Positions 28,707 to 56,013 of a stretch of DNA of 64,000 nucleotides are shown piece after piece. The translations under genes were made by a program, and so were the position numbers. How positions within the stretch are numbered: the first letter of the stretch is position 1; each line of letters begins with the position of its first letter. The DNA comes from Parapedobacter soli (GTDB taxonomy: Bacteria; Bacteroidota; Bacteroidia; Sphingobacteriales; Sphingobacteriaceae). Below the pieces are notes generated by a model that searched no databases, was not told the origin of the DNA, and saw only the letters and a program-made list of their open reading frames with translations. The stretch covers positions 1 through 64,000 of the forward strand of contig NZ_JAMXAY010000005.1 in NCBI RefSeq assembly GCF_025460835.1. The letters are read 5' to 3'.

Positions 28707-28710
28707 ACCC

Positions 28711-29277: not shown

Positions 29278-30419
29278 ATCGCCAACGTATTTGTATAAGG
29301 AACATCCACAAATGCGCCAGTTTCCTGCGAGCGCAGGGCCGCTTTGAAAACCCGGTGGCTATCCACCGCTTCTTCCGGTGTTGCACAGCCAAATTTCCCA
29401 TTTAACAGCCCCTCACGCTCAGCAACGTACGCGGCGATCATCTGCATGAAACAGTCGGGAAAACCCGCTTCAAAAATACCGCCTGTGATGGTCTCAAAGG
29501 GCATCTGAAACCCGAGATCGGTGCGCTTCCACCATTGTTCGGGCCCATTGGTAAACTGCCAGAAAGCCTTGGTATCTTTTGTACTGTAGCGTACGCCGCC
29601 TTCCGTTCCGTAAATCTCGATGTACCACGTGTTTGTTTCTCCCGGCGCCAGCCGCTTCATTTCCAACTGCATGGGCACCTGCTCGCCTCCGATTTCGACC
29701 TGCGTGTTCAGTATTGCATTATTCCATGTATCGCATTCAGCAACGCCACCCTTACCATCGGGTCGTTCGGTAATAATTTTCTGCAGCTGGGCAAACACCT
29801 TCGACGGCCGCCATCCCAACCGCAGCGGCACATGCAGTGCATGCATACCCAAATCACCCATTACCCCTATTTCACCGCAATATTGCGATTGGCGCTTCCA
29901 GTTGATGGGCTTCTGGGCATTCATATCGCTTGCATGGAGAAACCCGGATCGGACTTCGAATATCCGTCCCAGCCGCCCCGACTGCACTTCGCTGATCACC
30001 CGCTGCGGACCGGGAAGAAAAGGCATTTCAGAGCTGCAACGTACAAAGCGCCCCAATTTGGCCGCCTCTGCTGCAATCGCCTCGGCGGCCTCCTGATCAA
30101 TACCAAAAGGCTTCTCACCCAATAGGTCTTTGCCCGCCCGCAGGATATCGAGATACATATGGAGATGCAGGTTGTGCGGAACAGCAATATACACCATGTC
30201 TACCTGGTCGCTGTTAATCAGCTCTTGGTAATCTGTTGTCAGCAGTGCAACGCTGTCTATCTGCTTATACCACGATAAAACCGTCTCGTCCAAATCACAC
30301 ACCGCGGTCAACCGCGCCCGCACGGGAAAATCCTTGAGGGCAAACCATCGCCCGAACGCGCTGGCAGCCTCGCGCCCCATCAATCCCCCGCCTATGATAC
30401 CGATATTTACTGTTTTCAT
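29274..30419 (-). CDS. Gfo/Idh/MocA-family oxidoreductase
   Basis: The 381-residue protein has the N-terminal NAD(P) fold (GIIGGGLMGREA), the strand motif DMVYIAVPHNLH, and the EKPFGID motif with the catalytic Lys. The C-terminal domain is the usual open sheet. Members oxidise or epimerise sugars and inositols, and several Bacteroidota forms act as glycosidases by a redox route. It begins directly after the aldolase stop and is translationally coupled to the isomerase. The substrate is unknown. Confidence 0.9.
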   Translation of the reverse strand: MKTVNIGIIGGGLMGREAASAFGRWFALKDFPVRARLTAVCDLDETVLSWYKQIDSVALLTTDYQELINSDQVDMVYIAVPHNLHLHMYLDILRAGKDLLGEKPFGIDQEAAEAIAAEAAKLGRFVRCSSEMPFLPGPQRVISEVQSGRLGRIFEVRSGFLHASDMNAQKPINWKRQSQYCGEIGVMGDLGMHALHVPLRLGWRPSKVFAQLQKIITERPDGKGGVAECDTWNNAILNTQVEIGGEQVPMQLEMKRLAPGETNTWYIEIYGTEGGVRYSTKDTKAFWQFTNGPEQWWKRTDLGFQMPFETITGGIFEAGFPDCFMQMIAAYVAEREGLLNGKFGCATPEEAVDSHRVFKAALRSQETGAFVDVPYTNTLAI

Positions 30420-31256
30420 TTACTGTTTTTTTAACAATCCGATTACTTCTTCTGGTTTAGCACCCTCATGCACGATGGCCATCAGCGCACGTGTCATCCC
30501 ACTCGGGTTGGCATGCTGGATAACATTCCGTCCGTAAACGATGCCTTTCACACCCTGCTGCATCAAGCCATACGTTCGTTGCAGGATTTCCTCATCCGTT
30601 GCTTTGCCACCTCCTCGCACCAATACGGGGATATCTCCGGCAATTTCCACCACACGGTGGTAATCATTCACGTTATCGGTTGGGTCGGCTTTGATGATGT
30701 CTGCACCCAACTCCACGCCCTGCCTTACCAACGGAATAATTTTCCCGGAATCGCCATTCACCATATACCCGCCAGCCTCGTTATTCGGACGGAATACCAG
30801 CGGCTCTACCATTAATGGGATACCGTAACGTTCCGTCTCCGGCTTAATCTTCAATATATTTTGGATGCATTGGTCGGTTACCTCCGGTTCATCTGGAATG
30901 CTGAACAGGTTTACCACTACGCACACGGCATCCAAACGGATGGCCTGCTCTACGGGATTTTCGATCATACGGCTGAATAAGGTACGTGGTAATTGCTTAC
31001 CGTATACGTTGGCTACATCCGTGCGCAATACCAGCGACGGCTTTTCGCGGCCCGGAATGGACTGCAGGTAATGTGCCTGCCCGATGGTAAGTTGTATGGC
31101 ATCCGGAGCTGCATCTACCAATACATCGACGGCCTTCTTTATATTTTCTATTCCGTTTAAAAATGGATATTCGTTAAAGAATCCGTGATCTATGGCAACA
31201 TCGAAACAGTTGCCTGATTTACTGTTAAAAAGTCTGTTTAATCTGTAATTTTTCAT
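30420..31256 (-). CDS. Class I aldolase, DeoC/FbaB/LsrF family
   Basis: A TIM-barrel Schiff-base aldolase of 278 residues. Marks are FDVAIDHGFF at the start, MVEPLVF, the lysine in DIIKADPTDNV (the likely Schiff base), and the phosphate-binding VLVRGGGK and GIVYGRNVIQH. The family includes archaeal-type fructose-bisphosphate aldolase, LsrF and related enzymes. It is the first gene of the catabolic operon, and a GntR operator lies 105 bp upstream. With the isomerase and kinase it could split the ketose phosphate into three-carbon units. Confidence 0.88.
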   Translation of the reverse strand: MKNYRLNRLFNSKSGNCFDVAIDHGFFNEYPFLNGIENIKKAVDVLVDAAPDAIQLTIGQAHYLQSIPGREKPSLVLRTDVANVYGKQLPRTLFSRMIENPVEQAIRLDAVCVVVNLFSIPDEPEVTDQCIQNILKIKPETERYGIPLMVEPLVFRPNNEAGGYMVNGDSGKIIPLVRQGVELGADIIKADPTDNVNDYHRVVEIAGDIPVLVRGGGKATDEEILQRTYGLMQQGVKGIVYGRNVIQHANPSGMTRALMAIVHEGAKPEEVIGLLKKQ

Positions 31257-31511: not shown

Positions 31512-33848
31512 TTAATTAGTTTCCCCGCCCTGTGCGAAAGTACCGTCCGGAAGGACCTTGCTCACATCCTCACCTTTATATAATAGTTGATATGCTGAAT
31601 CATATTCGGGATGACCTGCCACTTTCACCCAAAGAGTAAACAAATTTGATTTCAAATGCGGCACGCTAAAATGCATCGTTGGTCCCTGAGCGTTCGTAAA
31701 GGGTTCGGCCCCCGGGCAGTCCCATGTAAGTAGTTCCATTTCTTGATTATCGTATTCCAAAGTGACAGCAATCTCGAGCTTTTCCACTTGGTTATACGAA
31801 TCGTTCAATAAGAATAGGTCAAACTCAAAGTCTTCATTCTCTTTCCACACAAACTTCCGTACCCTGGCGCTGGCTAAAATCGGACGACAAGCATCCGTTA
31901 CATCCTTGAAAGCGGGTTTTGGTTCATTAGGCCAATTTACAATGCTGTTGTTTGCGGCAGTCGGCCATGGCTCCTGAAAACACCAATTGAGCGCCATACT
32001 ACAATAAGGTTTCTGCCGACGAGCTTCTTCATAAATGAACTTCAAGCCCTCACCTTGTAATAGTTGGCTGTATTGAACCAATTCCGTTACAGTGTGCGGA
32101 TCACCAAAATATTTTCGAAATGTCGCCATTTCCGTCCAACTGCTATTACGCCACGCGCCAAATCCATGATGTACACTCCAGGTCGTACCCTCTTTAGGAG
32201 GAAAAAGTTCATCGCTTGGAATAAAGCTTTTCAGCACTTCTAGGTTAGAAATACTGGGAACTCCAAACTCAGTATACGCCGTCATGCGCGCTTCAGTCAT
32301 CCACTGAAACACCTCTCTTCCACTTTCTTTATCGTAAAAAAGATAATGCCCATGCCCGACGCCGTAGAAAGGTGACGTATTGATAAACGGAGTGTTCGGA
32401 TCTAATTGGTAGCACACACTGTTTAATAGGCGGAAAGGGAGAGATTGCTCGGTCATGCCGCCCCAATATAATTCATTACCGCCTGACCATAAGGCGAGGC
32501 AAGCATGCTTTTTGAGCCGGTTAACAATCGATGCAGCTTCCTGTTTAAGTACCTTTAGATAACTCGGCTTATCTGTATACACATTGTTTGCCAATGGAAA
32601 ATCCTGCCAGACCAACAGACCGAGTTCATCACATATATCGTAAAATGCCTCCTTATTTACGATTCCTCCGCCCCACACACGTAATAGATTGAAATTTGCA
32701 TTTTTTGCGAGAACAAGTTGTTCGCGGTAGCGCTCCGGGGTAATGGTCCCGATAAAAACCTCGGGGTGAACCCAGTTGCTGCCTTTGCCAAAAATCCGTC
32801 GATTGTTAACTTCTAGTGAAGCAGGCGGCATAGCGCTGGTTGCTGGGAACCCCCAGCTGTCGTTCCATGATTTTTCATTCACAACCAATCGGACCCGGCG
32901 GAATCCGGTTCGGATTATGCGACGTTCGAGTTCACAGTTATTCGTGTCTAGCAGTAAAAATTCAGATACATATAGATTGGGGTCACCGTAGCCATTTGGT
33001 TGCCACAATTTAGGTGATGCTAAATCCGCTGGTATAAATAAGTTGTCAGATGATATCGCTCCTGTCTTTTGCAGCACCGTCCTTCCTTCCGGATCCTTGA
33101 TTGTCCACTCATAGGCACTGCCGGATAATTTAACTCCGCTGATTTCAGCAGTGACTTTCGCATGCGTCAGGTCATCATTTAATACATAGGTCATCGAGAC
33201 GTCATTCAAGCGGACCGGTTGACGCACTGCGAGGTATGTTTCATCCCATATACCGCGGGTAACACATCTGGGGTGCCAATCCCAACCGTAACTGACAGCA
33301 GGTTTAACACTTTCCCGAGCATTTCTCCGGTAACTATCCGGGGTCTCGGGAGACACCTCAAATCCAAGCTTGGGCACGGGGCGCAAAACAACTCTCAATT
33401 CGTTAACGTCCCGTAAATCATCCGTTAAGTCAACGTCTACATAAGTAAACATTCCCTCCTGGTCCCGAATAATCTTCCCATTTAAAACCACCTTAAAGTG
33501 GTAGTCAATACCTTTCGAGAAAAAAAATAGCCGTTCGCCGTCCTTCAGTTCTGGACGTTCAAATATGGTTTTGTAGGTAAACCAAACGTCCTCCATCCAA
33601 TCGAACTGTGCAACGTTATTCCCATACCACCAAGGTTGTTCATAGTTTTCGGCCTTCATCACATCCAATTGAACGGCACCCGGAACCGTCGATTCAAGCC
33701 AATGTTCCGGCTGTTCGCTTTCAGTATTGTGGTAGCCGATTTGCCAAATAGGATAAATTTGTTGAGCCACGGCAGACAAAAGGAGCGTATGAAATAAAGC
33801 AACTAGTGCCGTTATACGTAATAAAATGATACTCGGTTTCAATCTCAT
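31512..33848 (-). CDS. GH2-family beta-mannosidase-like glycosidase
   Basis: The protein removes sugars, probably beta-mannosyl residues, from non-reducing ends. A sugar-binding domain (PGAVQLDVMKAENYEQPWW, YGWDWHP) leads to an immunoglobulin-like domain and the TIM barrel. The acid/base Glu is in LWSGGNELYWG and the nucleophile in AYTEFGVPS, both typical of GH2 mannosidases. I choose ATG 33848, which gives a clean signal peptide (MRLKPSIILLRITALVALF...AVAQ) and 778 residues; the frame extends to 33908 and would overlap the preceding gene. Last gene of the long PUL operon. Confidence 0.88.
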   Translation of the reverse strand: MRLKPSIILLRITALVALFHTLLLSAVAQQIYPIWQIGYHNTESEQPEHWLESTVPGAVQLDVMKAENYEQPWWYGNNVAQFDWMEDVWFTYKTIFERPELKDGERLFFFSKGIDYHFKVVLNGKIIRDQEGMFTYVDVDLTDDLRDVNELRVVLRPVPKLGFEVSPETPDSYRRNARESVKPAVSYGWDWHPRCVTRGIWDETYLAVRQPVRLNDVSMTYVLNDDLTHAKVTAEISGVKLSGSAYEWTIKDPEGRTVLQKTGAISSDNLFIPADLASPKLWQPNGYGDPNLYVSEFLLLDTNNCELERRIIRTGFRRVRLVVNEKSWNDSWGFPATSAMPPASLEVNNRRIFGKGSNWVHPEVFIGTITPERYREQLVLAKNANFNLLRVWGGGIVNKEAFYDICDELGLLVWQDFPLANNVYTDKPSYLKVLKQEAASIVNRLKKHACLALWSGGNELYWGGMTEQSLPFRLLNSVCYQLDPNTPFINTSPFYGVGHGHYLFYDKESGREVFQWMTEARMTAYTEFGVPSISNLEVLKSFIPSDELFPPKEGTTWSVHHGFGAWRNSSWTEMATFRKYFGDPHTVTELVQYSQLLQGEGLKFIYEEARRQKPYCSMALNWCFQEPWPTAANNSIVNWPNEPKPAFKDVTDACRPILASARVRKFVWKENEDFEFDLFLLNDSYNQVEKLEIAVTLEYDNQEMELLTWDCPGAEPFTNAQGPTMHFSVPHLKSNLFTLWVKVAGHPEYDSAYQLLYKGEDVSKVLPDGTFAQGGETN

Positions 33849-33882
33849 TTTTCGCAAAAGTTTATAGAAGTCTAGTTTAACC

Positions 33883-35877
33883 TTATTTGATTTGTCCTTT
33901 GGCTGCATCTTCGTTTTCTTTCAGATAAATCCGGTACAGCTCAAAAAATGTCGGTGCATCAACAAGCGTGATATTCGGGTCCCGCTTTTTTATTTCATCC
34001 ACGATCGACCCATACCAAGTCGGCGACTTTAGCACACTCCGTACCCAAAAGAAAGGAATTGGAGATTCGTTTACCATCTTTACCACGGCGGCCGCGTCCT
34101 CCTCCGGTTCCGAATTCACGTAACCACCCTCCCTCAAAATCGGCACGTTGCCGTGCAAATAGGTACGAGGAACGCGGTTCTCAATCTCGCGGCCCTCAAA
34201 AAAGGGTGTATAACTCTCAATATTTTGCCGCACAATGCCATTCGGACTAAAAGCTGCATATGAATTGAGTCCACTTTCGTTGAGACCAGGAGCGTAGCCG
34301 TCGATTACGAAGCCACTTACACTCAAGCCCCATTTCTGATAATAGGGAATATTATGATTTGCCCACGCTTGCGTTGCGTCCGGCAACCCGGAAATCGGGC
34401 GGGGTGCCTGCAACATACCGGGATTAAGATAGCCCGCACCGTTATCCGCCGCTACGAAATAATCGTTTGGCGTCGCCGTTTCCCGTCGATAGTCAAGGGC
34501 CATTGGCACCCGCTGGGACAATATCGGACTGATAGCCCACATAATCGGTACAATTCCTCTATTTGGGTCGTCCCATATGTAAGGGGTGGTAGTGGAAAGC
34601 CACGAGGAGGCGTCATAGTCACCCGCGTAAAAAATCAATAGCTTTTTATCGCCCAAACTGAGTTTTCCATGCTCGTCCAAATAACCTTGTTTCGACAATT
34701 CCCTAGCGGAAACCCATTCCTGAGGATATTCACTCTTAAGCGGATAATGTTGCCAAAATGAACCATTGGCAAGCGCCCCAAAACTATCTCCTCCTGTAGC
34801 ATCAGCGTCCACAAAAGCATTATATGCACTAATCACGCGCATGAACTCCCACTCGCTTTCGACAGCTCCGTGGCGTCCCCCGTCAAGAACGGTATATTTA
34901 AATCGCCACGCGGGAAAACCACCGATATAGGAAAAAGTACTTCCATTACCATTCTGCTCATAGGCTAACATTAACATCTCTTTTAAAAGTGCTAAATCAG
35001 CCCCTGGCGATTGACCGCGATCATCGGTTGCGGGTTCATCAGCCCAAGGACTCAAATCAAAGAAATAACCTTTTTTGCTCACAAAAAAGTCATGGTTGGA
35101 CAATGTATGGTGGTTAACGGGCGCGACATCGGGTGTCCGCCTCCAATATTGGTCGATGTAATAAGCACCATATTCAGGGTTGCATTTCCCCGTCTCCATA
35201 TAATTATCAATAAACCAGCGGTACGCGTCCGTTTTAGGAGTTCCACCCCGACCAGAACCGTCGAAAATGGAAGATCCGTCTTCATTGACCAACCTCACTT
35301 TGACAGGAATTTTGGGCCCTTCTAGAATTAGTTTACTGTACAACGAATTGGGACTGGAATTGTAACACACTGCAACGAGGTCTTCCGCACCAGCGATTGA
35401 TGAAGCGAGATTACTAGTTGCGGGAACATTTGGATCATACACCACCGCACCGTTAATATCCTCATTGAACTTCGTGACCAAATCTATTATGTTCAGAGCG
35501 CTGTCTACGTTTGCGTTACCCAACCATTTGCTAGGCTGCCGGTATTTATCCCACCAATAGCGGTCAACATTTATACCCTTATCAGGTACTTCAACATAAA
35601 AAAGGTATAAGCGTGGGCTGCTCCGATTTACGATTCCCTGAAGTGTTGCTGCGGTGTGAACGTGCTCCCATATTGTATGAATATCCTCTTCGTTATTCAC
35701 GTTAAGATTATTCAAATATTGCATATCAAAGGTGACCACTGTGTCTTTTACCAACTCGGCATTTTGGGGTTCGCTGTCATTATTTCTTTCCTTATTGCCG
35801 TTGAACTGACAGGCGGTCAATTGTGAAATAAATCCGGCGCACAAAGCAAGAAAGGCGAGACATGATGATTGTTTCAT
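33883..35877 (-). CDS. GxGYxYP-family lipoprotein
   Basis: A 664-residue exported lipoprotein (lipobox LTAC, Cys23) of the GxGYxYP family, whose name motif appears here as GAGYLNPGM. The family occurs in gut and soil Bacteroidota PULs and is thought to act on carbohydrates, although to my knowledge without a firm activity. The N-terminal part (about 50-250) covers the separate N domain (TLQGIVNRSSPRLYLFY). It precedes the GH2 gene, which begins near its stop codon, and follows the tandem TIM-barrel lipoproteins. Confidence 0.8.
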   Translation of the reverse strand: MKQSSCLAFLALCAGFISQLTACQFNGNKERNNDSEPQNAELVKDTVVTFDMQYLNNLNVNNEEDIHTIWEHVHTAATLQGIVNRSSPRLYLFYVEVPDKGINVDRYWWDKYRQPSKWLGNANVDSALNIIDLVTKFNEDINGAVVYDPNVPATSNLASSIAGAEDLVAVCYNSSPNSLYSKLILEGPKIPVKVRLVNEDGSSIFDGSGRGGTPKTDAYRWFIDNYMETGKCNPEYGAYYIDQYWRRTPDVAPVNHHTLSNHDFFVSKKGYFFDLSPWADEPATDDRGQSPGADLALLKEMLMLAYEQNGNGSTFSYIGGFPAWRFKYTVLDGGRHGAVESEWEFMRVISAYNAFVDADATGGDSFGALANGSFWQHYPLKSEYPQEWVSARELSKQGYLDEHGKLSLGDKKLLIFYAGDYDASSWLSTTTPYIWDDPNRGIVPIMWAISPILSQRVPMALDYRRETATPNDYFVAADNGAGYLNPGMLQAPRPISGLPDATQAWANHNIPYYQKWGLSVSGFVIDGYAPGLNESGLNSYAAFSPNGIVRQNIESYTPFFEGREIENRVPRTYLHGNVPILREGGYVNSEPEEDAAAVVKMVNESPIPFFWVRSVLKSPTWYGSIVDEIKKRDPNITLVDAPTFFELYRIYLKENEDAAKGQIK

Positions 35878-35921
35878 ATATTTGAGTGAAATATTTGTAA
35901 ATTATACAACGTTCCTTTGGG

Positions 35922-37112
35922 CTAGTGACTCCATTGAAAACCAAAAGGAAAGAAACGCGTAGCCATTTGACTTTCCGGAGTGTTCGTTCTAAAATTAAGA
36001 TAGCCAAATGTGGTTTCCCGAGCAGTTAATGGATCACAAGTAGCGTCTGTACAATCAATAGATAACCAATCGCTGAAAAGCTGCCAAAACAAAATTCGGT
36101 CAACGCTTTGAATTATTTTACTGTTAAAAACCGTCTCGAAAAAGGCCGCATGCACACTAGCCGCTCTTCCATCTCCAAGTCCGGCGCGCGGAAAGCCGAT
36201 TTCGCCGATTACAATTCTGTTTTGATTCGGCAGGCTCGCCGGATCTTGTAGCCGTGTCACCACACTTTCCCAACGGCTCAAAATCCGATGCATATCGACA
36301 CCCTCTGTATCCATGGGGTAAAGGTGTATATTGGGGATTCCCTTTCCACCCGCCTCATAATAATTTGTCCACCAGTCCAAATAAAGCCATTGATCACCTG
36401 AGATTATTGAACTCGCCAGTACCTCTTTATATGGAACACCATATTCGTCCAGCTTTGCCGCTACCGCGTTATCAAAAAAAGCAGCATACCTTTGTTCACC
36501 ACTTATTTCCGCATTAAACTCATTAAATGGCTCAATTTTCAGCTTTTCAACCATCCAACCTTCGTCCAGACCATGTTTAGTATGCTGACGAACCAAAAAC
36601 TCCGCAATTACATCCGCGACTACGCCGAGCTCTTCATACATACCACCACTCGAGGACTGAACCTTGGCATCAATCCAAGAAGGATAAGGTTTCGAAAATG
36701 CCAAAATCAGCTCCACGTCCCGTTGTTCGTACTGACGTAAAACAGCTAAAAGCGCTAGATCGAACGGATAGTCTCCCTCGACTGGTTCAACGGTTTTTAG
36801 CGTGACAATCTCACGGAATACACTCGCCCGCCAATCATTTCTTTCGAAATGAGCTAGAAGATCGCCAGCTTTCGAAGCAGGCATTAATGGCATATTCTGT
36901 GGCACTCCCTCCATAACCCAAGCATAAGAAGGATAATCGGCTGGAACAATATGGTGTAAATGGGAGAGTAAAAACAATGCGTTAAAACCGACCAATGCTA
37001 CATCTGGAGTATTGGGTTCTGGCTCGCCTCCACCGGTATCATCATTGCCAACATCTTTGGCACAGCTTACCATCGTCGCGAGCAGGATAAATAGTAATGT
37101 ATGTCTCATCAT
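35922..37112 (-). CDS. Putative clan GH-A glycosidase lipoprotein, copy 2
   Basis: The 396-residue protein is a lipoprotein (Cys17 in TMVSC) with a TIM-barrel glycosidase pattern. The strand-4 pair is Asn197-Glu198 in EPFNEFNAE and the strand-7 Glu304 is in VIGEIGFPRAG, with IHLYP between them, as in clan GH-A enzymes such as GH5 and GH39. I cannot place it in a family. It is a close copy of the next gene upstream in transcription (37191-38393): roughly two thirds identical by eye over the whole mature part, including the conserved ending CTDATCD.PLTARETTFGYLNF. It is probably surface-exposed and acts on the same glycan. Confidence 0.72.
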   Translation of the reverse strand: MMRHTLLFILLATMVSCAKDVGNDDTGGGEPEPNTPDVALVGFNALFLLSHLHHIVPADYPSYAWVMEGVPQNMPLMPASKAGDLLAHFERNDWRASVFREIVTLKTVEPVEGDYPFDLALLAVLRQYEQRDVELILAFSKPYPSWIDAKVQSSSGGMYEELGVVADVIAEFLVRQHTKHGLDEGWMVEKLKIEPFNEFNAEISGEQRYAAFFDNAVAAKLDEYGVPYKEVLASSIISGDQWLYLDWWTNYYEAGGKGIPNIHLYPMDTEGVDMHRILSRWESVVTRLQDPASLPNQNRIVIGEIGFPRAGLGDGRAASVHAAFFETVFNSKIIQSVDRILFWQLFSDWLSIDCTDATCDPLTARETTFGYLNFRTNTPESQMATRFFPFGFQWSH

Positions 37113-37190
37113 GGTATACTAGTTAAGCCTTTAATACTATAAACAGAATTTTCCAAACCTTACACCCCACAGTATAACTTTAGGAATTTA

Positions 37191-38393
37191 TTAATGTGTC
37201 CACCAGAACCCGACAGGGAAAAAGCGTGTCATCATTTGAGATTCAGGGGTATCTGTCCTAAAATTCAAATATCCAAAGGTTGTTTCTCTAGCTGTCACTG
37301 GATCACAGGTTGCATCGGTGCAATCGATAGTCAGCCAATCACTAAAAATACGCCAATACACAACCCTATCAACACTTTGAATACGGATACTATTGAAAAT
37401 TGTGTCCAAAAAAGCTGCGTGGACCACAGAAGCACCACCATCTCCCAGTCCGGCACGTGGAAAACCAATTTCGCCAATTACTATCCGATTGTGATTTGGT
37501 AAGCTCGTAGGATTTTGCAATCGTGCCACCACGGTTTCCCAACGGCTTACAATCGTTGAAATGTCTGTGCCCTCGCTTTCCATTGGATAGAGATGAATGT
37601 TGGGAGTTCCCGGACCACCGGCTAGATAGTAGTTTGTCCACCAGTCTAGATAAAGCCACTCATCACTCGAAATAATGGAACTGGCAAGTACTTCTTTGCG
37701 GGGCACACCAAAGTAATCCAGCTTGGAATTGACTGCATTATCTAAAATGGCAGCGTACGATTCATCACCACTCACCTCAGCATTAAATTCATTAAAAGGT
37801 TCGATCTTCAGCTTTTCTGCCATCCAAGTGGAATCGAGACCATACCATATCCGCTGACGCGCCAGAAAGTAAGAAATAACATTTGCCACAACATCCATTT
37901 CTACGGCCATACCTCCGCCTAGCGCCTGTACTTTGGAGGCAATCCACGATGGATAAGGCTTCGAAAATGCTAAAATCAATTCTACATTCCTTTGCTGGTA
38001 CTTTTGCAGTACCGAAAACAATTCCGAATCAAATGGGAAAACCCCTTCTGTTGGCTCAATCGTTTTCAGCGGCAGAATGTCTCGAAAAACGTCAGCATGT
38101 CTCCCATTTATTTCAAAGTTATACAACAAATCTGCGGCTTTGGAAGCCGGCATTGCCGGCATATTTTGAGGAACACCCTGCATGACCCAAGCGTGCTGGG
38201 GATAATATTGAGGCACGACAAAACTTAAATGGGACAGGGCAAACAACTCGTTGAATCCGGATAACGCTGCCTCATTTGATTCGGTTTTGAACGCGGCCTT
38301 ATTATCAATTTGCGTTTTTTCGCAGGATGTGCAAAGACCACCAATCAATATCAAAACCCAGCTCTTATAATATATATATCTTCTTCGTATCAT
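37191..38393 (-). CDS. Putative clan GH-A glycosidase lipoprotein, copy 1
   Basis: This 400-residue lipoprotein (lipobox GLCTSC) is the tandem twin of 35922-37112. It keeps the same putative catalytic residues, the NE pair in EPFNEFNAE and the Glu of VIGEIGFPRAG, and the same length and ending (RFFPVGFWWTH). Differences cluster in the N-terminal 40 residues and in loops, for example IWYGLDSTW against TKHGLDEGW, which suggests divergence in substrate choice after duplication. No known GH family is assigned from the sequence alone. Confidence 0.72.
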   Translation of the reverse strand: MIRRRYIYYKSWVLILIGGLCTSCEKTQIDNKAAFKTESNEAALSGFNELFALSHLSFVVPQYYPQHAWVMQGVPQNMPAMPASKAADLLYNFEINGRHADVFRDILPLKTIEPTEGVFPFDSELFSVLQKYQQRNVELILAFSKPYPSWIASKVQALGGGMAVEMDVVANVISYFLARQRIWYGLDSTWMAEKLKIEPFNEFNAEVSGDESYAAILDNAVNSKLDYFGVPRKEVLASSIISSDEWLYLDWWTNYYLAGGPGTPNIHLYPMESEGTDISTIVSRWETVVARLQNPTSLPNHNRIVIGEIGFPRAGLGDGGASVVHAAFLDTIFNSIRIQSVDRVVYWRIFSDWLTIDCTDATCDPVTARETTFGYLNFRTDTPESQMMTRFFPVGFWWTH

Positions 38394-38444
38394 CTTTCAA
38401 CCTAAGATCATTATTTGACTCAACTCCGTCTTTAGGAACCGATT

Positions 38445-39662
38445 CTAATAGTCTTCGTAAAACTTAATTTCGTCAATCATGACGTCTACTGCACCGCCAC
38501 AAAACAAGTGATACATTCGGAAATAGTTTACGGCGCTTAGGTTTATATCTCCGCCTCTATTGTCAATTATAGCGTCCGAAAGCTTAAGATCGATCTTATT
38601 CCATCCATTATGCAACGTCAACATGGAAAAGTTCCAACTTAATTCCTGATTATCTGGACCGCCTGAACTCGTAATCTCGATAGCTGACCCCCAATCTGGA
38701 ATATTCGTGTTTAACATTTGAACATCAGACACGTATAACCAAAAAGAAAAGACACCGTGCTCCATGCTTACCTCTGTATTGAACGGAGAGGAAAACTGCT
38801 TTTCAAAAACCGGCACCGCATTTGCGTTGAGAGATGTCTTTAATGAGTACGTTCCCTCTCTGCTGTCCGAGGCCAAACTTAGGGGGCCAGCGCTTCCCCA
38901 ACCATCTGTTGTTTCAGCGGCGTCTAACACCTTTCCAGAAGGTTCCGCATTCGGATCAATTTTACCGATTTCAATCTCACTGGCTGGCGCATAATTAGAT
39001 AGCGCTCCCGGAAAACTGCTAACCGCTCCTATTCTAAAGAAATATTTCCTCCCCGATTCAAAAAACGCTGAATTTCGAACCAGATTAAGACCGATTCGAA
39101 ATGTCTCATTCTCGTCTACCTGTTGATTCAATTCCCTTTCGACAGCAACCGATCGAACCCGCTCACCGACTATCGATTCCCCGGAAGCGTAGAGGCCGAT
39201 TTTTTTTACAGCATCGGTGGTCAACTGTTGCAATTTGAATTCAGCTATAATGTTATTCCCCTCCTGTTTTATTGAAACATCTTTCACTCGGATATATGGC
39301 GTCACCATAAAATCAAGCTGGGTGTCTTTACCTATTTCAATTTCCTGTACGTCTATTTGAGAAAAATTCCGTTGATCGGGTTGTATTGTATAAGTATTAG
39401 CAAACAACATGGTGTTGGCATACGTACCATCCGTTTTAACCCTCAAATATTGAGGTGTCACGGGGTCGTACCCATGTTCAATGATTTTAATAGTAGTACC
39501 TTCAACAATATCGGATTGTATCGGTTCACCAGTCTCGGAATCGATTATACGACCGGATAGTTGTGCGTCAGGTCCTCCATAATTATCTAGTTCGCATGAA
39601 CTGAACAATAACAAGCCACACATTAGAACTTGCAGCGTTTCGAAAAAAGTAATTTTATGCAT
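38445..39662 (-). CDS. DUF3823 outer-surface lipoprotein (SusE/F position)
   Basis: A 405-residue lipoprotein (Cys24 in FSSC). Residues 25-120 fit DUF3823: DNYGGPDAQLSGRIIDSETGEPIQSD and the following carboxypeptidase-regulatory-like fold. The middle part is fibronectin-like. The C-terminal 140 residues look like a jelly-roll carbohydrate-binding module (EKQFSSPFNTEVSMEHGVFSF ... INLSAVNYFRMYH). It follows susD by 21 bp, the place where SusE/SusF-type glycan-binding proteins are encoded. It probably binds glycan on the cell surface. Confidence 0.82.
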   Translation of the reverse strand: MHKITFFETLQVLMCGLLLFSSCELDNYGGPDAQLSGRIIDSETGEPIQSDIVEGTTIKIIEHGYDPVTPQYLRVKTDGTYANTMLFANTYTIQPDQRNFSQIDVQEIEIGKDTQLDFMVTPYIRVKDVSIKQEGNNIIAEFKLQQLTTDAVKKIGLYASGESIVGERVRSVAVERELNQQVDENETFRIGLNLVRNSAFFESGRKYFFRIGAVSSFPGALSNYAPASEIEIGKIDPNAEPSGKVLDAAETTDGWGSAGPLSLASDSREGTYSLKTSLNANAVPVFEKQFSSPFNTEVSMEHGVFSFWLYVSDVQMLNTNIPDWGSAIEITSSGGPDNQELSWNFSMLTLHNGWNKIDLKLSDAIIDNRGGDINLSAVNYFRMYHLFCGGAVDVMIDEIKFYEDY

Positions 39663-39683
39663 GATAAGTCGATAAGTGGTTAA

Positions 39684-41600
39684 TCAATACTGGGGGTTCT
39701 GGATCAAGTCGTTAGATCCAATACCGGGTATTGCCGTATAATAATACCTTGATGGAACGGTTAATGCAACTCCTCTCGCGATATATTTCCTTACGAATAT
39801 ATACTTTGGTTGGCCACCGGTCAAATCCAATACTGGACACAGCGCTGTATGAATATAATTGTTGAATACTTCATGTAAGTCTCTACGTCGAATCAAATCC
39901 CACCACCGCTTATTCTCGAACGCTAGTTCAACTCGCCGCTCGCGCAGCACATTTTCTAAACTAAGCGGAATGTCGACCGTATGCCCAGCACGTCGTCGTA
40001 TGGCATTTAATTCATTTTTGGCAATTTCCTGGGCATTTCCGCCTGTATAGCCACTTTCAATCACGGCCTCGGCGTAGTTTAACAACACCTCCGCATACCG
40101 CATTTCTATCCAGTCGTTTGTGGATGCACCCGTATTGGCGTTTCCACTAACCGTCGTTGGAGAAAGAAACTTTTTAAAACTGAATCCGGTCCGAGTCATC
40201 TCGGCAATGTGCTGCGGATCGAACCCGGAATAATCTTTCCATGAATCTGCACCGAACGTATGGTACGTAACACCATTGACCTCAACAGTCGCCTTTTCAG
40301 CCTCTATCACAGGCGTTGCGTCAGGCTTTATAAAGCCTGCCTGAATATTGATCGTTACGCCCTTCCATTCCGTGCCGGGCAGAATAACGGTTGCCCACAA
40401 TCGAGCATCTTTATCCTTAAAGATATCATATGGAGTATCAAATTTCAAGTATGTACGTGCGGCATTGTATCCGTTGTAATCTGAGACATCGCCATCTGCA
40501 GTTGTAACAATGGGTGCGCTTTGCCCAGGCGTAGTGTAACTCTCGTATAAATCCACGAGTTCCAACGAGGGGTTCACCCTACCCGGAAAAGATGACCCGT
40601 CGGCAGTTTGATTTGGATTACACCAGAGATCCATGGTATGACCGTCTGTGAACGGCCTGGTATAACCGAAAGTAAAGATTGCTTCCTCTGGAGCAAGGCT
40701 AGGATTTTGAAACAATGCCATATAATTATTGGCTGCCTCTTCGGCAGAAGCCGGGTTCGGCTTATACAACCGATGCACCCCTCCTTCCATAATTTCTTTG
40801 GACGCGAGAATACATTGTTCGTAATAATCATTGGCGGCCGATGCATCTATCCCAACAAGACCTTTTGATACCGCCTCCCCAGATAGCGGTGCCTTGCTCC
40901 CATATTTTGCTATAGAAGCAGCATGAAGTGCAACGCGTGATTTCAATGCATAAGCAACCCATTTGGTAACCCGCCGCTCATCGTTGCCACTTCGTGACGG
41001 AGGCAGGTACTTCACTGCTTCATCACAATCACTTAATATAAAGTCATACGTGTCCTTTTCGGTACTCCGAGGAACCTTCAACGATTCGATGTCCGGATCA
41101 TAGTCTTGATAGCTGGAAATTACCGGAATACCGCCATACCATTTTGCAAGCGTAAAATAGTTAAACGCCCGCAAGAAATGTGCTTCACTTATCAACTCAT
41201 TTTTCGTCTCTTCTTCAAGAAAAGTAGATGATTGAACGGCCCGTAATAGTAAATTAATATCTCTATTGACCTTATACCCGTCACTCCAATATGAGTATAA
41301 ACTTCTCCGAAATTCCGGTGATTCATTAAACTCCGAATGAGCGGCGTTATCTGCCATTACATCAGACAGGAGTCCATGCCACAGACCATACCCGGAGTGT
41401 GGACCACCCCACGTATAATTGAATTCCTCTGTGGGCAACCTGTAATATAAGTTTGCTAAAAATGCCCGGATACCGTCTTCACTGGATAATATTACATCGC
41501 TACTTACTCTATCAAGCGGTTCCAAGTCCATGATATCCCGGCAACTCATTGAAGTGCCTAGAAAAATTACGACGGTAAATAAAATGCTTTTCCTTTTCAT
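39684..41600 (-). CDS. SusD/RagB family nutrient-binding lipoprotein
   Basis: The 638-residue protein is the lid and ligand-binding partner of the SusC pore. Its lipobox is SMSC (Cys20), followed by the SusD opening RDIMDLEPLDRVSSDVILSSEDGIRAFLANLYYRLP. The TPR-like helices (SEAHFLRAFNYFTLAKWYGGIPV) and the conserved ending ENVLRERRVELAFENKRWWDLIRR are present. It lies 11 bp after susC. Confidence 0.95.
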   Translation of the reverse strand: MKRKSILFTVVIFLGTSMSCRDIMDLEPLDRVSSDVILSSEDGIRAFLANLYYRLPTEEFNYTWGGPHSGYGLWHGLLSDVMADNAAHSEFNESPEFRRSLYSYWSDGYKVNRDINLLLRAVQSSTFLEEETKNELISEAHFLRAFNYFTLAKWYGGIPVISSYQDYDPDIESLKVPRSTEKDTYDFILSDCDEAVKYLPPSRSGNDERRVTKWVAYALKSRVALHAASIAKYGSKAPLSGEAVSKGLVGIDASAANDYYEQCILASKEIMEGGVHRLYKPNPASAEEAANNYMALFQNPSLAPEEAIFTFGYTRPFTDGHTMDLWCNPNQTADGSSFPGRVNPSLELVDLYESYTTPGQSAPIVTTADGDVSDYNGYNAARTYLKFDTPYDIFKDKDARLWATVILPGTEWKGVTINIQAGFIKPDATPVIEAEKATVEVNGVTYHTFGADSWKDYSGFDPQHIAEMTRTGFSFKKFLSPTTVSGNANTGASTNDWIEMRYAEVLLNYAEAVIESGYTGGNAQEIAKNELNAIRRRAGHTVDIPLSLENVLRERRVELAFENKRWWDLIRRRDLHEVFNNYIHTALCPVLDLTGGQPKYIFVRKYIARGVALTVPSRYYYTAIPGIGSNDLIQNPQY

Positions 41601-41611
41601 TGTTATGATCT

Positions 41612-44600
41612 TTATAATGAAATGTTAAGTCCTATGTTAACACTCTTGGTCAACGGATAAACCCAGCCCGCATTATTTCCCCCTTCGCTCCTTTCTGGGT
41701 CGAACGCTCTCACAAACGGGTCGGTAATCGTCCAGAGGTTGTAGCCATTCACATACACACGAAGACCTTGTAAACCAATCCGCTGAAGCACTTGAGAGTT
41801 GACTGAATAGCCTATCTCTACACTTTTTAATCGTAAATAGGATGCTTCCCGACGCCAGACCGAACTTTCATTGTACATCGCGCCCATATCCGGCTGTCGT
41901 CTGACCGCTGGCCATTCCCCGGCGACCCACTCACCGTTAGGGTCGTTCGGATTGGACAAATGCCATCGGTCCATAAAATAGGCGGGCATATTCGCATCAT
42001 TCCAAAGATACGTGCCATAAACGTGGGTAAAACGAAGCGAATACTTTGCAGACCCTTGCCAGAGCATATTAAAGTCAATATTCCGCCATTTAACCCCCAT
42101 TGTCAGTCCATAATGCATTTTAGGATCCCCGCCCCATTCTAAGGGAATGACATCATTTCCATCAATGACTCCGTCATTGTTTACATCACGGTATTGGAAA
42201 TCTCCAGGCAATTCACGGCTATTCCCAAGGGAGCCATTCTGAATGGGCGCATTTACGATATCTTCCTTTGTTTTGAATTGTCCTACATAATCGTACATCC
42301 ACACCACATCGCTCCAGCGACCATTTTGACCATTCCGCCATCGATCCATACTATTGACAAACGGACCACGTTCCGCATACACTACCATTCTACGAGCGAA
42401 ATTGAAGTTAGTGCTCACATTAACGCGCAGGTCGCTTCGGAGACGTTTGGTATAGCTTACTAAAGCCTCGATACCTCGGACGCGGTCCTTATTGAGATTT
42501 TCTTGAGGCATACTTGCCCCGAAGGTATTAGTGAGCGTCCCATATCTCGTGGCTAATAGGCCGCTTCGATCCCGTTGGTAAAGATCAAAGGTGATGTTCA
42601 TGGAGCCATTCAAAAGACCCAAATCAAAGCCAACATCCTTGATTTTTGACGTATACCAAGTCAAATTTTCATTTATTACCCCTGGCGCAGCGACACCAGT
42701 GGTGCGCACCCCCTCCATAAACTCATAGCCACCTTGGTTCAATGCAAAGCCTCCGACATATTGAAATGCGTTACCAGCATTTTCACCGACTACGCCATAC
42801 GAGGCGCGGAATTTCAGGTCAGATACAAACGGAACATTCCTTTTGAAGAACCCTTCTTCAGAGACGCGCCATCCCCCTGAGATAACAGGGAAAAAGCCCC
42901 ACCGACGATCGGGGTGGTACCTATACGAACCGTCATATCTTGACGCAAATTCAAACATGTACTTCGCCAGGTAATCATAGGTGACGCGGCCAACCAGTGA
43001 ACGGTACCCTGCTTGACTATCATAGCCGCTATTCCGTTGGTTATCTGTGTCACCAAAATCAATCTGATCTATCGTATAAAATTGAAATTCCCTCATAAGA
43101 CCAGCGCTCCGGGACCACGACTTACGTTCTTCATACACGGCTGTAGCGCTGAGGTTGTGGCTCTCCGCAAACGTCTTTTTATAATTTAAATGGGCTTGAA
43201 ATTGGAGTTCGTTTCCGTCAGCCCAATTGTTGTGCAATTGTGTTGGGAAGCCGTATGTAAACGGGAGATACAAGTCGTTTGTTCCGTCATAAGTATACAT
43301 ATCAAAACTCTTTTGCAAAGCTTTGCCCATCGCATTACCGCTTTCATAAGAAGCAAGTCCTTTGATTTGCAGCCCCTCCACAAACGGAATTTCGTAAATC
43401 AGACTCGCGACGGATCGAAACGACTTATCCCGATGTCTGGAATAACCCACCGCATCTGCATCCGAAGTTACTACCGAATTCCAAGCTTGGCCGTCAAAAA
43501 CGTATGCCGGGTAGTCTCTGTTGTTATTCGCGTACGGAGCATGTATAGGTTGCAGCGATACAGTACCTCTCATAATACTGAAAAAATCCCAAGCCGGAGA
43601 TTCTGTTTCGTAGTACCTACCTGACAACTCCATATTCACTTTCAGATGTTTCGTTAAGTGGGCTGTTAAATTCGCACGTCCGGAATATTGTCTATAGTTT
43701 ATATCGTTTGATTTTAGCAATCCGCCGTCCGCCATATGCCCAAAACTGGTGTAATAAGTTATTTTATCGTTACCCCCCTCAGCAGAAAGCGTATGTTGAT
43801 GCGATAAGGCGTAATTTCTCATGGTTTCTCCATACCAGTCTGTACTTCTATAACCAGGCGATCCGATCCTCCATTTTTCCAGTTCTTCTTCGGTATATAT
43901 GGGATCCGATCCGACATTCACAGCAGCCTCGTTCCGCAATGTCAGCCATTGGTACGCATTGGTCAACTCCGGTATATCAGTCGGGGTACTAAAACTAGTC
44001 CTTCCGGTATAATGAAACTTATTCTTTCCGGAACTGCCGCGCTTTGTCGTGACGAGAATAACACCGTTACCCGCATTCAAGCCATATATGGCGGCAGCGC
44101 CGTCTTTTAATACAGAGATATTTTCGATATCATCGGGCGTAAGGCGCTGGAACTCCCCCTCATTACTTTGGATACCATCAATGACATACAGCGGCCTACC
44201 AAAGCCGCGAATATTGATTGATGCATCAAAACTGCCGGGCTGCCCACTATTTTGGCGGATTTGTAAACCAGAAACTTTCCCTTGTAGCCGTCCCGCCATG
44301 GAAGTATGTGTTGTCGTTAGTATTTCTTCAGACTTAATGATGCTTACCGCAGCGGTCAGATTCCCTCGCTTTTGGGTACCGTAACCAACGACGACGACTT
44401 CTTCCAAATCATTAACGCTTGCCTCCATCGAAACATCAGCAACCGATTGGCCGGTGATAATTACCTCCGTCGGCTTATACCCTACCATTTTATAAATGAG
44501 CGTGTCGTTGCCGCCCAGCACATTAATAGCATATCGACCATCCACATCCGTCGTCGACACCACGCCACTCCTTTTGGCGCGGATGGTGACCCCTTCAAGC

Positions 44601-44788
44601 GGCGTCTCCTGCGTAGTGGTGACCCGGCCGGTAATGACATTCTGTTGGCTGGCTTGCACAGCAATACGAGCACTATACGTGCTTGCCGCGTTCAAACTTG
44701 AATAGCTGATGCCAATCAACCACACCAGAAGCAAGTAACGACTGATGGGAGTTTTAATTTCACGCATTCTTAATAGATTGACTTTCAT
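41612..44788 (-). CDS. SusC/RagA family TonB-dependent transporter
   Basis: This 1058-residue outer-membrane protein imports oligosaccharides with SusD. After the signal peptide comes a carboxypeptidase-D-regulatory-like domain (about 50-125, ITGRVTTTQETPLEGVTI). The TonB-box-plug region follows (EEVVVVGYGTQKRGNLTAAVS, GSFDASINIRGFGRPLYVIDGI) and then the beta-barrel, ending in VNIGLNISL with the terminal aromatic replaced by Leu. There is no STN domain, so it does not signal to an anti-sigma factor. The start is ATG 44788; an internal ATG at 44767 gives a more compact signal peptide. Confidence 0.95.
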   Translation of the reverse strand: MKVNLLRMREIKTPISRYLLLVWLIGISYSSLNAASTYSARIAVQASQQNVITGRVTTTQETPLEGVTIRAKRSGVVSTTDVDGRYAINVLGGNDTLIYKMVGYKPTEVIITGQSVADVSMEASVNDLEEVVVVGYGTQKRGNLTAAVSIIKSEEILTTTHTSMAGRLQGKVSGLQIRQNSGQPGSFDASINIRGFGRPLYVIDGIQSNEGEFQRLTPDDIENISVLKDGAAAIYGLNAGNGVILVTTKRGSSGKNKFHYTGRTSFSTPTDIPELTNAYQWLTLRNEAAVNVGSDPIYTEEELEKWRIGSPGYRSTDWYGETMRNYALSHQHTLSAEGGNDKITYYTSFGHMADGGLLKSNDINYRQYSGRANLTAHLTKHLKVNMELSGRYYETESPAWDFFSIMRGTVSLQPIHAPYANNNRDYPAYVFDGQAWNSVVTSDADAVGYSRHRDKSFRSVASLIYEIPFVEGLQIKGLASYESGNAMGKALQKSFDMYTYDGTNDLYLPFTYGFPTQLHNNWADGNELQFQAHLNYKKTFAESHNLSATAVYEERKSWSRSAGLMREFQFYTIDQIDFGDTDNQRNSGYDSQAGYRSLVGRVTYDYLAKYMFEFASRYDGSYRYHPDRRWGFFPVISGGWRVSEEGFFKRNVPFVSDLKFRASYGVVGENAGNAFQYVGGFALNQGGYEFMEGVRTTGVAAPGVINENLTWYTSKIKDVGFDLGLLNGSMNITFDLYQRDRSGLLATRYGTLTNTFGASMPQENLNKDRVRGIEALVSYTKRLRSDLRVNVSTNFNFARRMVVYAERGPFVNSMDRWRNGQNGRWSDVVWMYDYVGQFKTKEDIVNAPIQNGSLGNSRELPGDFQYRDVNNDGVIDGNDVIPLEWGGDPKMHYGLTMGVKWRNIDFNMLWQGSAKYSLRFTHVYGTYLWNDANMPAYFMDRWHLSNPNDPNGEWVAGEWPAVRRQPDMGAMYNESSVWRREASYLRLKSVEIGYSVNSQVLQRIGLQGLRVYVNGYNLWTITDPFVRAFDPERSEGGNNAGWVYPLTKSVNIGLNISL

Positions 44789-44840: not shown

Positions 44841-47180
44841 TCATTTGGCATTTCCATCATGTCTCGGTACACTTCCTTGGTTGTTACGTACTGAAAAAGA
44901 GAAAGGAGCATCCTTTTCGTTCACACTACGGGTGTGATTTGGCATTTTGGACATTTCGAATACAATCGCTGCCCCCTCCGTTAATTCTTCGTGACCAATC
45001 CAGTTTTTCGTGTATCGCTTGCCGTTAAGGGTAGCTTCACCAATGTACCGGCTCGCTGCCTGGTTCCCGGGTGCCGACACGACCACCTGATTACCATTCT
45101 CGAGCATTAATGTGGCATTTTCGAAAAGCGGCGACCCAATCACGTACTGGTCCACTGCTGGGCACACCGGATAAAACCCTAGGGCCGAAAACACATACCA
45201 AGCCGAAGTCTGCCCGTTATCTTCATCACCACAATAACCATCCGGGCCTGAGTGGTAGAGCTTATCCATAACCTCCCTGACCCAGTATTGGGTCTTCCAG
45301 GGTTGGCCTGCGAAGTTGTACAGGTACGTCATGTGCTGTATCGGCTGGTTGCCATGGGCATATTGCCCCATATTCATGATTTGCATCTCGCGAATTTCAT
45401 GAATAACGATTCCGTAGTAGCTCTCATCATACACAGGGGGGAGGATGAACACCGAATCCAGCTTAGCCAGGAATTTCTCCTTTCCGCCCATGAGGTCGAT
45501 CAGTCCTTGGATATCATGGAAAACCGACCAGCTATAGTGCCAACTATTGCCCTCAGTAAAAGCATCGCCCCATTTGAATGGATTAAAAGGCGATTGGAAT
45601 GTTCCATCCGCATTTTTGCCCCGCATCAAGCCAGATGTGGGATCAAACAGGTGTTTGTAGTTGTCCGCTCGTTTGGCAAAACGCTTGACTTCCTCGGCTG
45701 GGCGGCCCAGCTCCTGGGCCAAGCGGTAGATGGCAAAGTCGTTGTAAGCATACTCCAACGTGCGCGCAGCATTTTCATTAATACCCACATCGTATGGCAC
45801 ATAGCCCAACCTGTTGTAAAACGCCACGCCGCGCCGTCCAACTGAGCTAAGCGGCCCTTCGTTCTCACTGTTCTTGAGCAAGGCTTCATACAACGTGTTG
45901 ACATCATAACCCCTCGCTCCTTTCAGGTAAGCTTCGGCCACGATGGATGCTGAATTCGAGCCAATCATACTCTCCCGATGCCCAGGGCTCGCCCATTCGG
46001 GAAGCCAGCCGCTTTCCTTGTAAGTATTTACGAGACCTTCCATGATCTGCCCCGTCAGCGTTGGATACATCAGGTTGAAGAAGGGAAATACAGCTCGGAA
46101 TGTATCCCAGAAACCATTGTCGGTAAACATATAGCCAGGCAATACTTGACCGTTGTACGGGCTGTAATGCACCATATTTCCTTCCTCATCAAACTCATAA
46201 AATTTGCGTGGGTATAGTAACACGCGGTATAAGCATGAATAAAACGTCGCTAATTGATCATCCGTCCCACCGCTAACCTGTATACGGCCCAGTTCAGCGT
46301 TCCATATCGCCTCGCCTTTCGCTCTGATGGCGTCGAATCCATCATTTCCGAGTTCAAGGAGGTTTCGCTCCGCCTGCTCGTGGCAGATGAACGACGACGC
46401 GACACTCGCGTTCACCTTTTCACCGCGTTCGGTTTGAAACGCAATCACACCGATGGCGTGGTTGCCGGTATATTCCAGACTCGGTTGTTTCTGTTTATGG
46501 TCATAGGTAGCTGCATATGTAAACGGCTTATCAAATGTGATGACAAAATAATTCTTAAAATTAGTCGGTACGCCACCGCTGTTTTTCGTTGTGTACCCAA
46601 TCACCTTACGTTCTTCCGGGACGATTTTTATAAACGACCCATCGTCAAACGCGTCAATGACGAGATAGGCACTGTCTGTCTTTGGAAAGGTGAAACGGAA
46701 TTTAGCTGCCCGCTCAGTCGGGGTCACTTCTGCCGTCACATCGTGATCGGCCAAATAAACACTATAATAATGGGGTTTCGCAATTTCCGCCTTGTGGGAG
46801 AACCAGCTCGCCCGCTCATCCTCGTCGATTTTGAGTGTTCCGGTAACCGGCATGAGCGAAAACTGGCCGTAATCACCTATCCAAACGCTGGCTTGGTGAG
46901 TTTGCTTTATGCCTCGGATTTTATCAGCTGAATATTGGTACAGCCAGCCATTACCCATTTTGCCGGTTTGGGGCGACCAGAAATTCATGCCCCAAGGCAG
47001 TGCCGTGACGGGATATTGATTACCATTTGACAATTCAAATTTTGAGTCCGTCCCCATCAAAGGGTTTACAAGGTCAACCGGGTTTCGATCATGCACGGCA
47101 AGCGTAAACTGAGGCGATAACCAAAAAATTACAAAAAGAAAAGTAAACCACCTCAACCCGTAAGATTTGTATAATTGCAT
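44841..47180 (-). CDS. GH92-family alpha-mannosidase
   Basis: The 779-residue secreted protein follows the GH92 plan: N-terminal beta-sandwich opening with DLVNPLMGTD, ALPWGMNFWSPQT and GIKQTHQASVWIGDYGQFSLMPV, then an (alpha/alpha)6 barrel. Marks of the catalytic domain are ETFRAVFPFFNL-type DTFRAVFPFFNLMYP, GHRESMIGSNSAS and HGNQPIQHMTYLYNFAGQPWKTQ, where the family has its acid Glu as GNEP but this protein reads GNQP. DEDNGQTSAWYVFSALGFYPVCP is the calcium and base region. GH92 enzymes are calcium-dependent exo-alpha-mannosidases. A signal peptide of about 28 residues precedes it. Confidence 0.9.
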   Translation of the reverse strand: MQLYKSYGLRWFTFLFVIFWLSPQFTLAVHDRNPVDLVNPLMGTDSKFELSNGNQYPVTALPWGMNFWSPQTGKMGNGWLYQYSADKIRGIKQTHQASVWIGDYGQFSLMPVTGTLKIDEDERASWFSHKAEIAKPHYYSVYLADHDVTAEVTPTERAAKFRFTFPKTDSAYLVIDAFDDGSFIKIVPEERKVIGYTTKNSGGVPTNFKNYFVITFDKPFTYAATYDHKQKQPSLEYTGNHAIGVIAFQTERGEKVNASVASSFICHEQAERNLLELGNDGFDAIRAKGEAIWNAELGRIQVSGGTDDQLATFYSCLYRVLLYPRKFYEFDEEGNMVHYSPYNGQVLPGYMFTDNGFWDTFRAVFPFFNLMYPTLTGQIMEGLVNTYKESGWLPEWASPGHRESMIGSNSASIVAEAYLKGARGYDVNTLYEALLKNSENEGPLSSVGRRGVAFYNRLGYVPYDVGINENAARTLEYAYNDFAIYRLAQELGRPAEEVKRFAKRADNYKHLFDPTSGLMRGKNADGTFQSPFNPFKWGDAFTEGNSWHYSWSVFHDIQGLIDLMGGKEKFLAKLDSVFILPPVYDESYYGIVIHEIREMQIMNMGQYAHGNQPIQHMTYLYNFAGQPWKTQYWVREVMDKLYHSGPDGYCGDEDNGQTSAWYVFSALGFYPVCPAVDQYVIGSPLFENATLMLENGNQVVVSAPGNQAASRYIGEATLNGKRYTKNWIGHEELTEGAAIVFEMSKMPNHTRSVNEKDAPFSFSVRNNQGSVPRHDGNAK

Positions 47181-51812: not shown

Positions 51813-51837
51813 AATACTGGTATTGATTGTAACAGCA

Positions 51838-51870
51838 CAAACATAAATAAACAAACTTGTATATACAAGA
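51838..51870 (-). promoter_or_regulatory. Transporter promoter with GntR operator
   Basis: On the minus strand TATGTTTG (51838-51845) fits the -7 box and TTG (51866-51868) lies 20 bp upstream. ACTTGTATATACAAGA at 51855-51870 overlaps the -33 element. Confidence 0.7.
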
Positions 51871-54790: not shown

Positions 54791-54797
54791 AACAACC

Positions 54798-56012: not shown

Positions 56013-56013
56013 A

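Follow-up and report, generated by a model that had tools for sequence, protein, structure and literature searches.

Glycoside hydrolases of clan GH-A share two ordered glutamates, the first of which follows an asparagine in most families, and one family of this clan, GH5, includes beta-mannanases and endoglucanases. Loci that combine GxGYxYP proteins with mannan-directed enzymes are represented by PUL 69 of B. thetaiotaomicron, which we take to be the locus later named MAN-PUL3. According to excerpts of one report, this PUL responds to alpha-mannan and holds the GxGYxYP genes BT3857 and BT3859, a further GxGYxYP gene of the same bacterium, BT2200, immediately precedes a GH92 gene, and the specificity of GxGYxYP proteins was unknown as of 2014 (PMC4071793).

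Here, we analysed a window, that is, the whole stretch of 64,000 nucleotides from Parapedobacter soli (contig NZ_JAMXAY010000005.1), in which a GxGYxYP gene follows two adjacent genes without a recognisable family. We consider it fairly probable that their products are surface retaining endo-beta-glycosidases of clan GH-A, predicted to act on a mannose-containing glycan.

Results

Two constrained copies of one protein plan

An earlier note on this DNA had described two adjacent genes of the same plan, about two thirds identical and located in a PUL, whose products contain an Asn-Glu pair and a later Glu. Both open reading frames are indeed present, intact with zero internal stops, separated by 78 bp and flanked by the DUF3823 gene and the GxGYxYP gene:

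37191..38393, minus strand: orphan lipoprotein A, upstream copy, 400 aa (open reading frame, no family match)
35922..37112, minus strand: orphan lipoprotein B, downstream copy, 396 aa (open reading frame, no family match)

The alignment of A with B spans 390 columns with 67% identity and 80% positives, as the note had estimated by eye, and 255 of the 360 residues of the mature parts are identical. The nucleotide identity is 65.7%, and the NG86 method gave a dN of 0.24 for the whole proteins and of 0.20 for the mature part; a finite dS was not obtained for the two copies, which reads as saturation. With this nucleotide identity and without a finite dS, a recent tandem duplication is out as the origin of the two genes, and A and B appear to be copies that diverged long ago and are kept by purifying selection. 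Of the 20-residue blocks, two are most conserved, each with 19 identical residues: block 299-318, which spans the second Glu, and block 359-378, which contains the C-T-D-A-T-C common to both copies. Both N-termini are hydrophobic by eye and are predicted to be lipoprotein signals, with Cys24 in A (LCTSC, a non-canonical lipobox) and Cys17 in B (TMVSC).

An ordered array of putative active-site residues

The Asn-Glu pair and the later Glu, which stands in a G-E-I-G context, belong to an ordered array that is shared by both copies: N201-E202, H267-x-Y269, E308-x-G310 and W347 in A, and N197-E198, H263-x-Y265, E304-x-G306 and W343 in B. Judged by residue order, the two-Glu trait of clan GH-A is present in A and B. 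In A as in B, successive elements are 65, 41 and 39 residues apart. All three steps fall within those of GH5 (58-74, 26-84 and 26-42), of which the middle range, from H-x-Y to the second Glu, is wide.

For comparison, we used references of six GH-A Pfam families from Bacteroidota genomes, keeping 82 of 100 loci (left out were 16 weak or partial ones, a GH53 locus with a stop in the matched stretch, L058, and a GH5 locus with an empty frame, L097). The GH5 (27 sequences), GH53 (16) and GH26 (24) sets each contain exactly two Glu columns conserved to at least 80%, in the context N-E or H-E for the first and E-x-G or E-x-A for the second. The distance between both Glu in the first-listed sequence is 87 in GH5, 111 in GH53 and 93 in GH26, and ranges from 87 to 116 over the first-listed GH5, GH26, GH39, GH53, GH113 and GHcc references; in the orphan pair it is 106. 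The GH5 set also conserves the H-x-Y and the W, plus an earlier Arg and His. This strand-3 His, present in 26 of the 27 GH5 references, has no counterpart in the pair, as no His is common to A and B between residues 56 and 266.

The full pattern (N-E, H-x-Y, E-x-G and W in GH5 spacings) was found in 21/27 GH5 references and in none of the GH53 (0/16), GH113 (0/7), GH26 (0/24), GH39 (0/5) and GHcc (0/3) references. Of the 67 proteins with 250 aa or more that the window and four comparison loci encode, only the two orphans carry it (0/65 others). When copy A was shuffled, 17 of 20,000 sequences contained the pattern, and none of 20,000 did when the invariant A/B consensus was shuffled, a statistic that is generous since the array had been spotted before it was devised. 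Dropping the Gly raised these counts to 132 and 11 of 20,000, respectively, and extended the pattern to 25/27 GH5, 4/5 GH39 and 2/3 GHcc references. We read the array as putatively catalytic, in line with both Glu and their contexts having stayed invariant at a dN of 0.20 in the mature part and without a finite dS.

Search for relatives

Neither copy matched a Pfam family at E <= 1 or at E <= 10, where weak matches up to E 10 are mostly dropped by the HMMER filters, and NCBIfam, PHROGs and PADLOC returned nothing for the pair. A search of the PDB sequences with copy A and with a two-row profile gave only two ribosomal-protein matches (E 1.7 and 2.2). Thus, the outcome that would have spoken against the earlier note, clear similarity to an established GH family, did not appear in Pfam, NCBIfam, PHROGs or the PDB sequences.

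Whole-genome searches were made in four draws that overlap, so that their counts are not additive. At E <= 0.001, only the window's own genome was hit among 301 family genomes (copy A as query) and among 395 phylum genomes (profile as query). Among 400 order genomes the best match after the own genome had an E of 0.011, and among 345 class genomes the best other match had an E of 0.0046. The latter was ruled out as a relative, as its frame crosses five stops. Of the weak order-level matches (E 0.011 to 3.0), the best (L004) lies by eye in an ABC-transporter-like ATPase and another (L010) within a HAD-like protein, and both were set aside as noise. The own genome also yielded a weak match of GH128 type (L135), which by eye represents another GH-A protein, of 393 aa.

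Two peptide-pattern scans over 84,980 species returned 22 and 69 pattern stretches, none of which encodes a relative; such scans detect only sequences that agree almost exactly over 7-8 consecutive residues, and relatives of moderate identity would escape them. Plasmids searched with copy A gave only unrelated partial matches (best E 0.9), and no relatives were found in phages, searched with copy B, or in viral contigs. A description of the pair was not found in the literature, judged by titles and the starts of abstracts. The pair can be called rare on these results, and the word unique is not supported.

Profile alignments and structure models

Of the six families aligned to the pair with HHalign, GH53 gave a modest signal: a score of 24.0 over residues 266-314, which places E308 on the second Glu of GH53, with 1 of 120 column shuffles scoring as high. 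The GHcc alignment was reached by 2/60 shuffles and covers only residues 248-271, away from both Glu. The remaining families lay deeper within the shuffle range (5/60 as high for GH5, 6/40 for GH26, 20/40 for GH39 and 35/40 for GH113). When the GH-A families were aligned with each other, 6 of the 15 pairings reached a probability of 70-97% and the other nine stayed at or below about 31%, the reference sets being partly misread.

Two AlphaFold models were built from the two sequences only and reached a mean pLDDT of 38.7 and 41.0 and a pTM of 0.29 and 0.36 for models 1 and 2, respectively. In the low-confidence model 2, both Glu lie at or beside the end of a short strand, 155-159 before N161-E162 and 265-269 with E268 (model numbering). 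Foldseek ranked GH-A structures at positions 1-11 for this model, with a best E of 0.018 and none at E <= 0.001, and 15 of the top 20 were GH-A; ranks 1-11 presumably belong to GH5 or GH35, with ranks 1-10 GH5-type. The equally low-confidence model 1 gave scattered matches, 3 of the top 20 being GH-A and again none at E <= 0.001. In VIA-align, the best Z for model 2 was 6.1 (heparanase, 92 residues, rmsd 2.9), a common level by the tool's own note; its 50 rows, drawn from the chains preselected by Foldseek, included 39 that are GH-A judging from their description or presumed family. These results hint at, but do not prove, a (beta/alpha)8 barrel, in which the two Glu would fall on strands 4 and 7, going by their order in the sequence and by these poor models. 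The earlier assignment to GH-A without an assignable family was borne out in its lack of a match in Pfam, NCBIfam, PHROGs and the PDB sequences and in its GH5-like order and spacing; its barrel stays a prediction, both models being of low confidence.

Could the pair belong to an existing family after all? As a divergent branch of either GH5 or GH53, or of some other CAZy family of GH-A that lacks a Pfam model, it would work by the same mechanism, and this reading would agree with the GH5 spacings of the array, with the local GH53 alignment and with the presumably GH5-type top ranks of model 2. We nevertheless hold such a branch to be decidedly unlikely: Pfam gave no match up to E 10, albeit with filters that drop most weak matches, the strand-3 His of GH5 is absent, and the HHalign score to GH5 is reached by shuffled columns. 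The poor models and weak profile scores would also suit a lipoprotein of some other fold that is no glycosidase and carries N-E, H-x-Y, E-x-G and W by chance. This we regard as highly improbable, given both the total absence of the array from shuffles of the invariant consensus and the PUL in which the genes lie.

The locus and its glycan context

The PUL location claimed earlier was confirmed by the Pfam assignments of the genes around the pair:

27669..31256, minus strand: PfkB kinase, D-lyxose-isomerase-family cupin, Gfo/Idh oxidoreductase and DeoC/LacD aldolase (Pfam)
31512..33908, minus strand: GH2, nearest solved relatives beta-mannosidases (Pfam PF22666/PF02836; 5n6u 2e-65, 2je8 9e-58)
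33883..35877, minus strand: GxGYxYP putative glycoside hydrolase (Pfam PF14323 1e-25, PF16216, PF20957)
38445..39662, minus strand: DUF3823 (SusE-position) lipoprotein, 405 aa (Pfam PF12866/PF18003)
39684..41600, minus strand: SusD-like protein (Pfam SusD_RagB, SusD-like_3)
41612..44788, minus strand: SusC-like TonB-dependent transporter (Pfam Plug, CarbopepD_reg_2; 59%/56% identical to its counterparts in the congener loci L038/L039)
44841..47180, minus strand: GH92, alpha-mannosidase family (Pfam PF07971 7e-176; TIGR01180)
47213..49372, minus strand: second GH92 (Pfam PF07971 2e-156)
49690..50406, plus strand: GntR/UTRA regulator, divergent from the locus (Pfam PF00392, PF07702)
50403..51854, minus strand: MFS transporter (Pfam PF07690)

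Read along the minus strand from 49372 to 27669, the order is GH92, GH92, SusC, SusD, DUF3823, A, B, GxGYxYP, GH2, DeoC/LacD aldolase, Gfo/Idh oxidoreductase, D-lyxose-isomerase family and PfkB kinase. A promoter scan gave 43 sites where 34.2 were expected (sd 6.0), and a terminator scan gave 17 where 19.8 were expected. The genes at 27669..31256 likely form an intracellular hexose pathway, and the MFS transporter is possibly the carrier of the released sugar. D-lyxose isomerases act on mannose too. From the two GH92 genes, the GH2, the D-lyxose-isomerase-family cupin and the precedent of GxGYxYP genes in PUL 69, a mannose-rich glycan is likely to be the food of this locus. The beta-mannosidase-like GH2 beside GH92 suggests that this glycan also has beta-linkages, which would be a target for a GH-A enzyme to cut.

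The position of the pair bears on a further alternative. Binding lipoproteins are usual in the SusE/SGBP position after susD, and A and B directly follow susD and the DUF3823 gene. They may thus be barrel-type surface glycan-binding proteins, with a GH-A-like fold whose catalysis was lost or never used, which capture glycan for SusD; the presence of two similar copies is as compatible with binding as with cutting, and the missing strand-3 His of GH5 would fit. A binder, however, would not have to retain both Glu, and the array of N-E, E-x-G, H-x-Y and W is invariant, so that we consider a purely binding role unlikely and prefer that of a glycosidase.

The remainder of the window holds further gene groups. 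At the locus edge, a BNR_4 family protein (51883-53352, minus strand) adjoins the MFS transporter and the GntR regulator and is possibly a further glycan-active enzyme. At 53438-59972 on the minus strand, Pfam assigns a phosphodiesterase, a DHQ-synthase-like protein, a UbiA prenyltransferase and a TatD-like protein, with unassigned genes after the phosphodiesterase and at the end; this run is presumably an ebo (EboA-F) cluster. At 1457-4654 on the plus strand, a NACHT protein of low GC that carries an inactive-REase domain adjoins a RelA/SpoT-domain protein; these two genes, for which no PADLOC match was found, are perhaps an immune module.

Congener loci and a proposed gain of the pair

Is the pair a common part of loci of this type? 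Nearly full-length relatives of the GxGYxYP protein, at 58-60% identity, occur in four genomes besides the own one among 201 family genomes drawn. In G188 and G007 the gene lies outside such a locus. The other two, G045 and G068 (2 of 8 other same-genus genomes drawn), have a related locus from which the orphan pair is absent. There, the row runs SusC, SusD, DUF3823, GxGYxYP, a second GxGYxYP and GH92, with a gap of 10 bp between DUF3823 and GxGYxYP; G045 has an extra GH92 upstream, past a 418-aa protein, and the stretch of G068 ends before that place. Compared with the window, SusC/D are 56-60% and the GH92 proteins 76-86% identical.

The congener loci (L038 and L039) carry, besides the second GxGYxYP gene (11034-12812 and 8107-9882, respectively), a gene for a 400-aa lipoprotein-like protein (15281-16486 and 4524-5726), which adjoins the GH92 gene and has no Pfam match.

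The congener DUF3823 proteins are shorter and align by BLAST to residues 7-232 and 11-232 only of the window protein. Its residues 233-405 (173 residues; 38448-38966, minus strand) have no counterpart in the two congeners, and residues 225-405, searched alone, gave no Pfam or PDB match. This additional C-terminal stretch is perhaps a new carbohydrate-binding domain. In the simplest account, the pair and the DUF3823 extra stretch were added to, or arrived with, the block from SusC to GH2. A later gain of this block would fit its GC3, although it is not proven by it: the seven genes in 31512-44788 have a GC3 of 0.40-0.48, below the values on either side (0.53-0.60 for three genes scored within 27669-31256, 0.55-0.59 for both GH92 genes). 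Loss of the pair in the congeners, rather than gain in the window genome, is a possible alternative.

Discussion

Here, we found a pair of intact, constrained genes within a GxGYxYP/GH92 locus that have an invariant residue array at identical spacing and no recognisable relatives in the searched sets. What the earlier note observed has held, and its GH-A interpretation is plausible and partly supported.

We propose that A and B would be cell-surface lipoproteins with a (beta/alpha)8 catalytic domain of the clan GH-A type. They would hydrolyse a beta-glycosidic bond with retention, with E202/E198 as acid/base and E308/E304 as nucleophile, in a -1 subsite that may be lined by H267-x-Y269 and W347. 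Endo-cleavage of a mannose-containing glycan at the outer membrane would yield pieces for import by SusC/D, on which the GH92 alpha-mannosidases, the GxGYxYP protein and the GH2 enzyme may then act, and inside the cell mannose would be isomerised, phosphorylated and split. We speculate that A and B diverged toward different positions or decorations of one glycan.

The pair probably represents a new rare family, as set apart by comparison with Pfam, NCBIfam, PHROGs and PDB sequences, and gene context suggests its link to mannan. More tentatively, and with somewhat less than even confidence, we propose that it founds a new, very rare GH family of clan GH-A, whose two adjacent paralogues were gained together with a new domain, resembling a glycan-binding one, at the SusE position and enable an existing GxGYxYP/GH92 mannan locus to attack a glycan whose internal beta-linkages are out of reach for related loci. 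Provided that they are active, A and B would constitute a new GH family whose active site is readable and could name the glycan that this type of locus attacks, for which the congener loci without the pair provide a ready natural comparison.

Comparison with known systems

Among the beta-mannanases, GH113 and GH26 resemble the pair in the similar spacing of their two Glu and in a fitting substrate class. The pair differs from GH113 by the lack of a Pfam PF22612 match and by an HHalign score that most shuffles reach (35/40), and from GH26 by the lack of a PF02156 match, by an Asn-Glu in place of the His-Glu of GH26 and by an HHalign score to which 6/40 shuffles are equal. The likeness to the GH53 endo-beta-1,4-galactanases lies in residues 266-314, where LYP to GEIGFP aligns to SFYP to VVETAYP of GH53, second Glu on second Glu. 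However, this covers 40 columns only, a PF07745 match is lacking, and the H-x-Y pattern occurs in 0/16 GH53 references. GH5 is set apart from the pair by the absent PF00150 match, the absent strand-3 His and an HHalign score within the shuffle range, but it shares the ordered N-E, H-x-Y, E-x-G and W at matching spacings, and GH5-type structures fill the top Foldseek rows for the low-confidence model 2.

At the level of the locus, pair-like genes are unmentioned for PUL 69 in the excerpts of its report (PMC4071793), and the orphan pair and a beta-mannosidase-like GH2 are additional components of the locus described here. The two have in common that GxGYxYP genes stand within a PUL that is mannan-directed in B. 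thetaiotaomicron, by the same excerpts, and likely so here.
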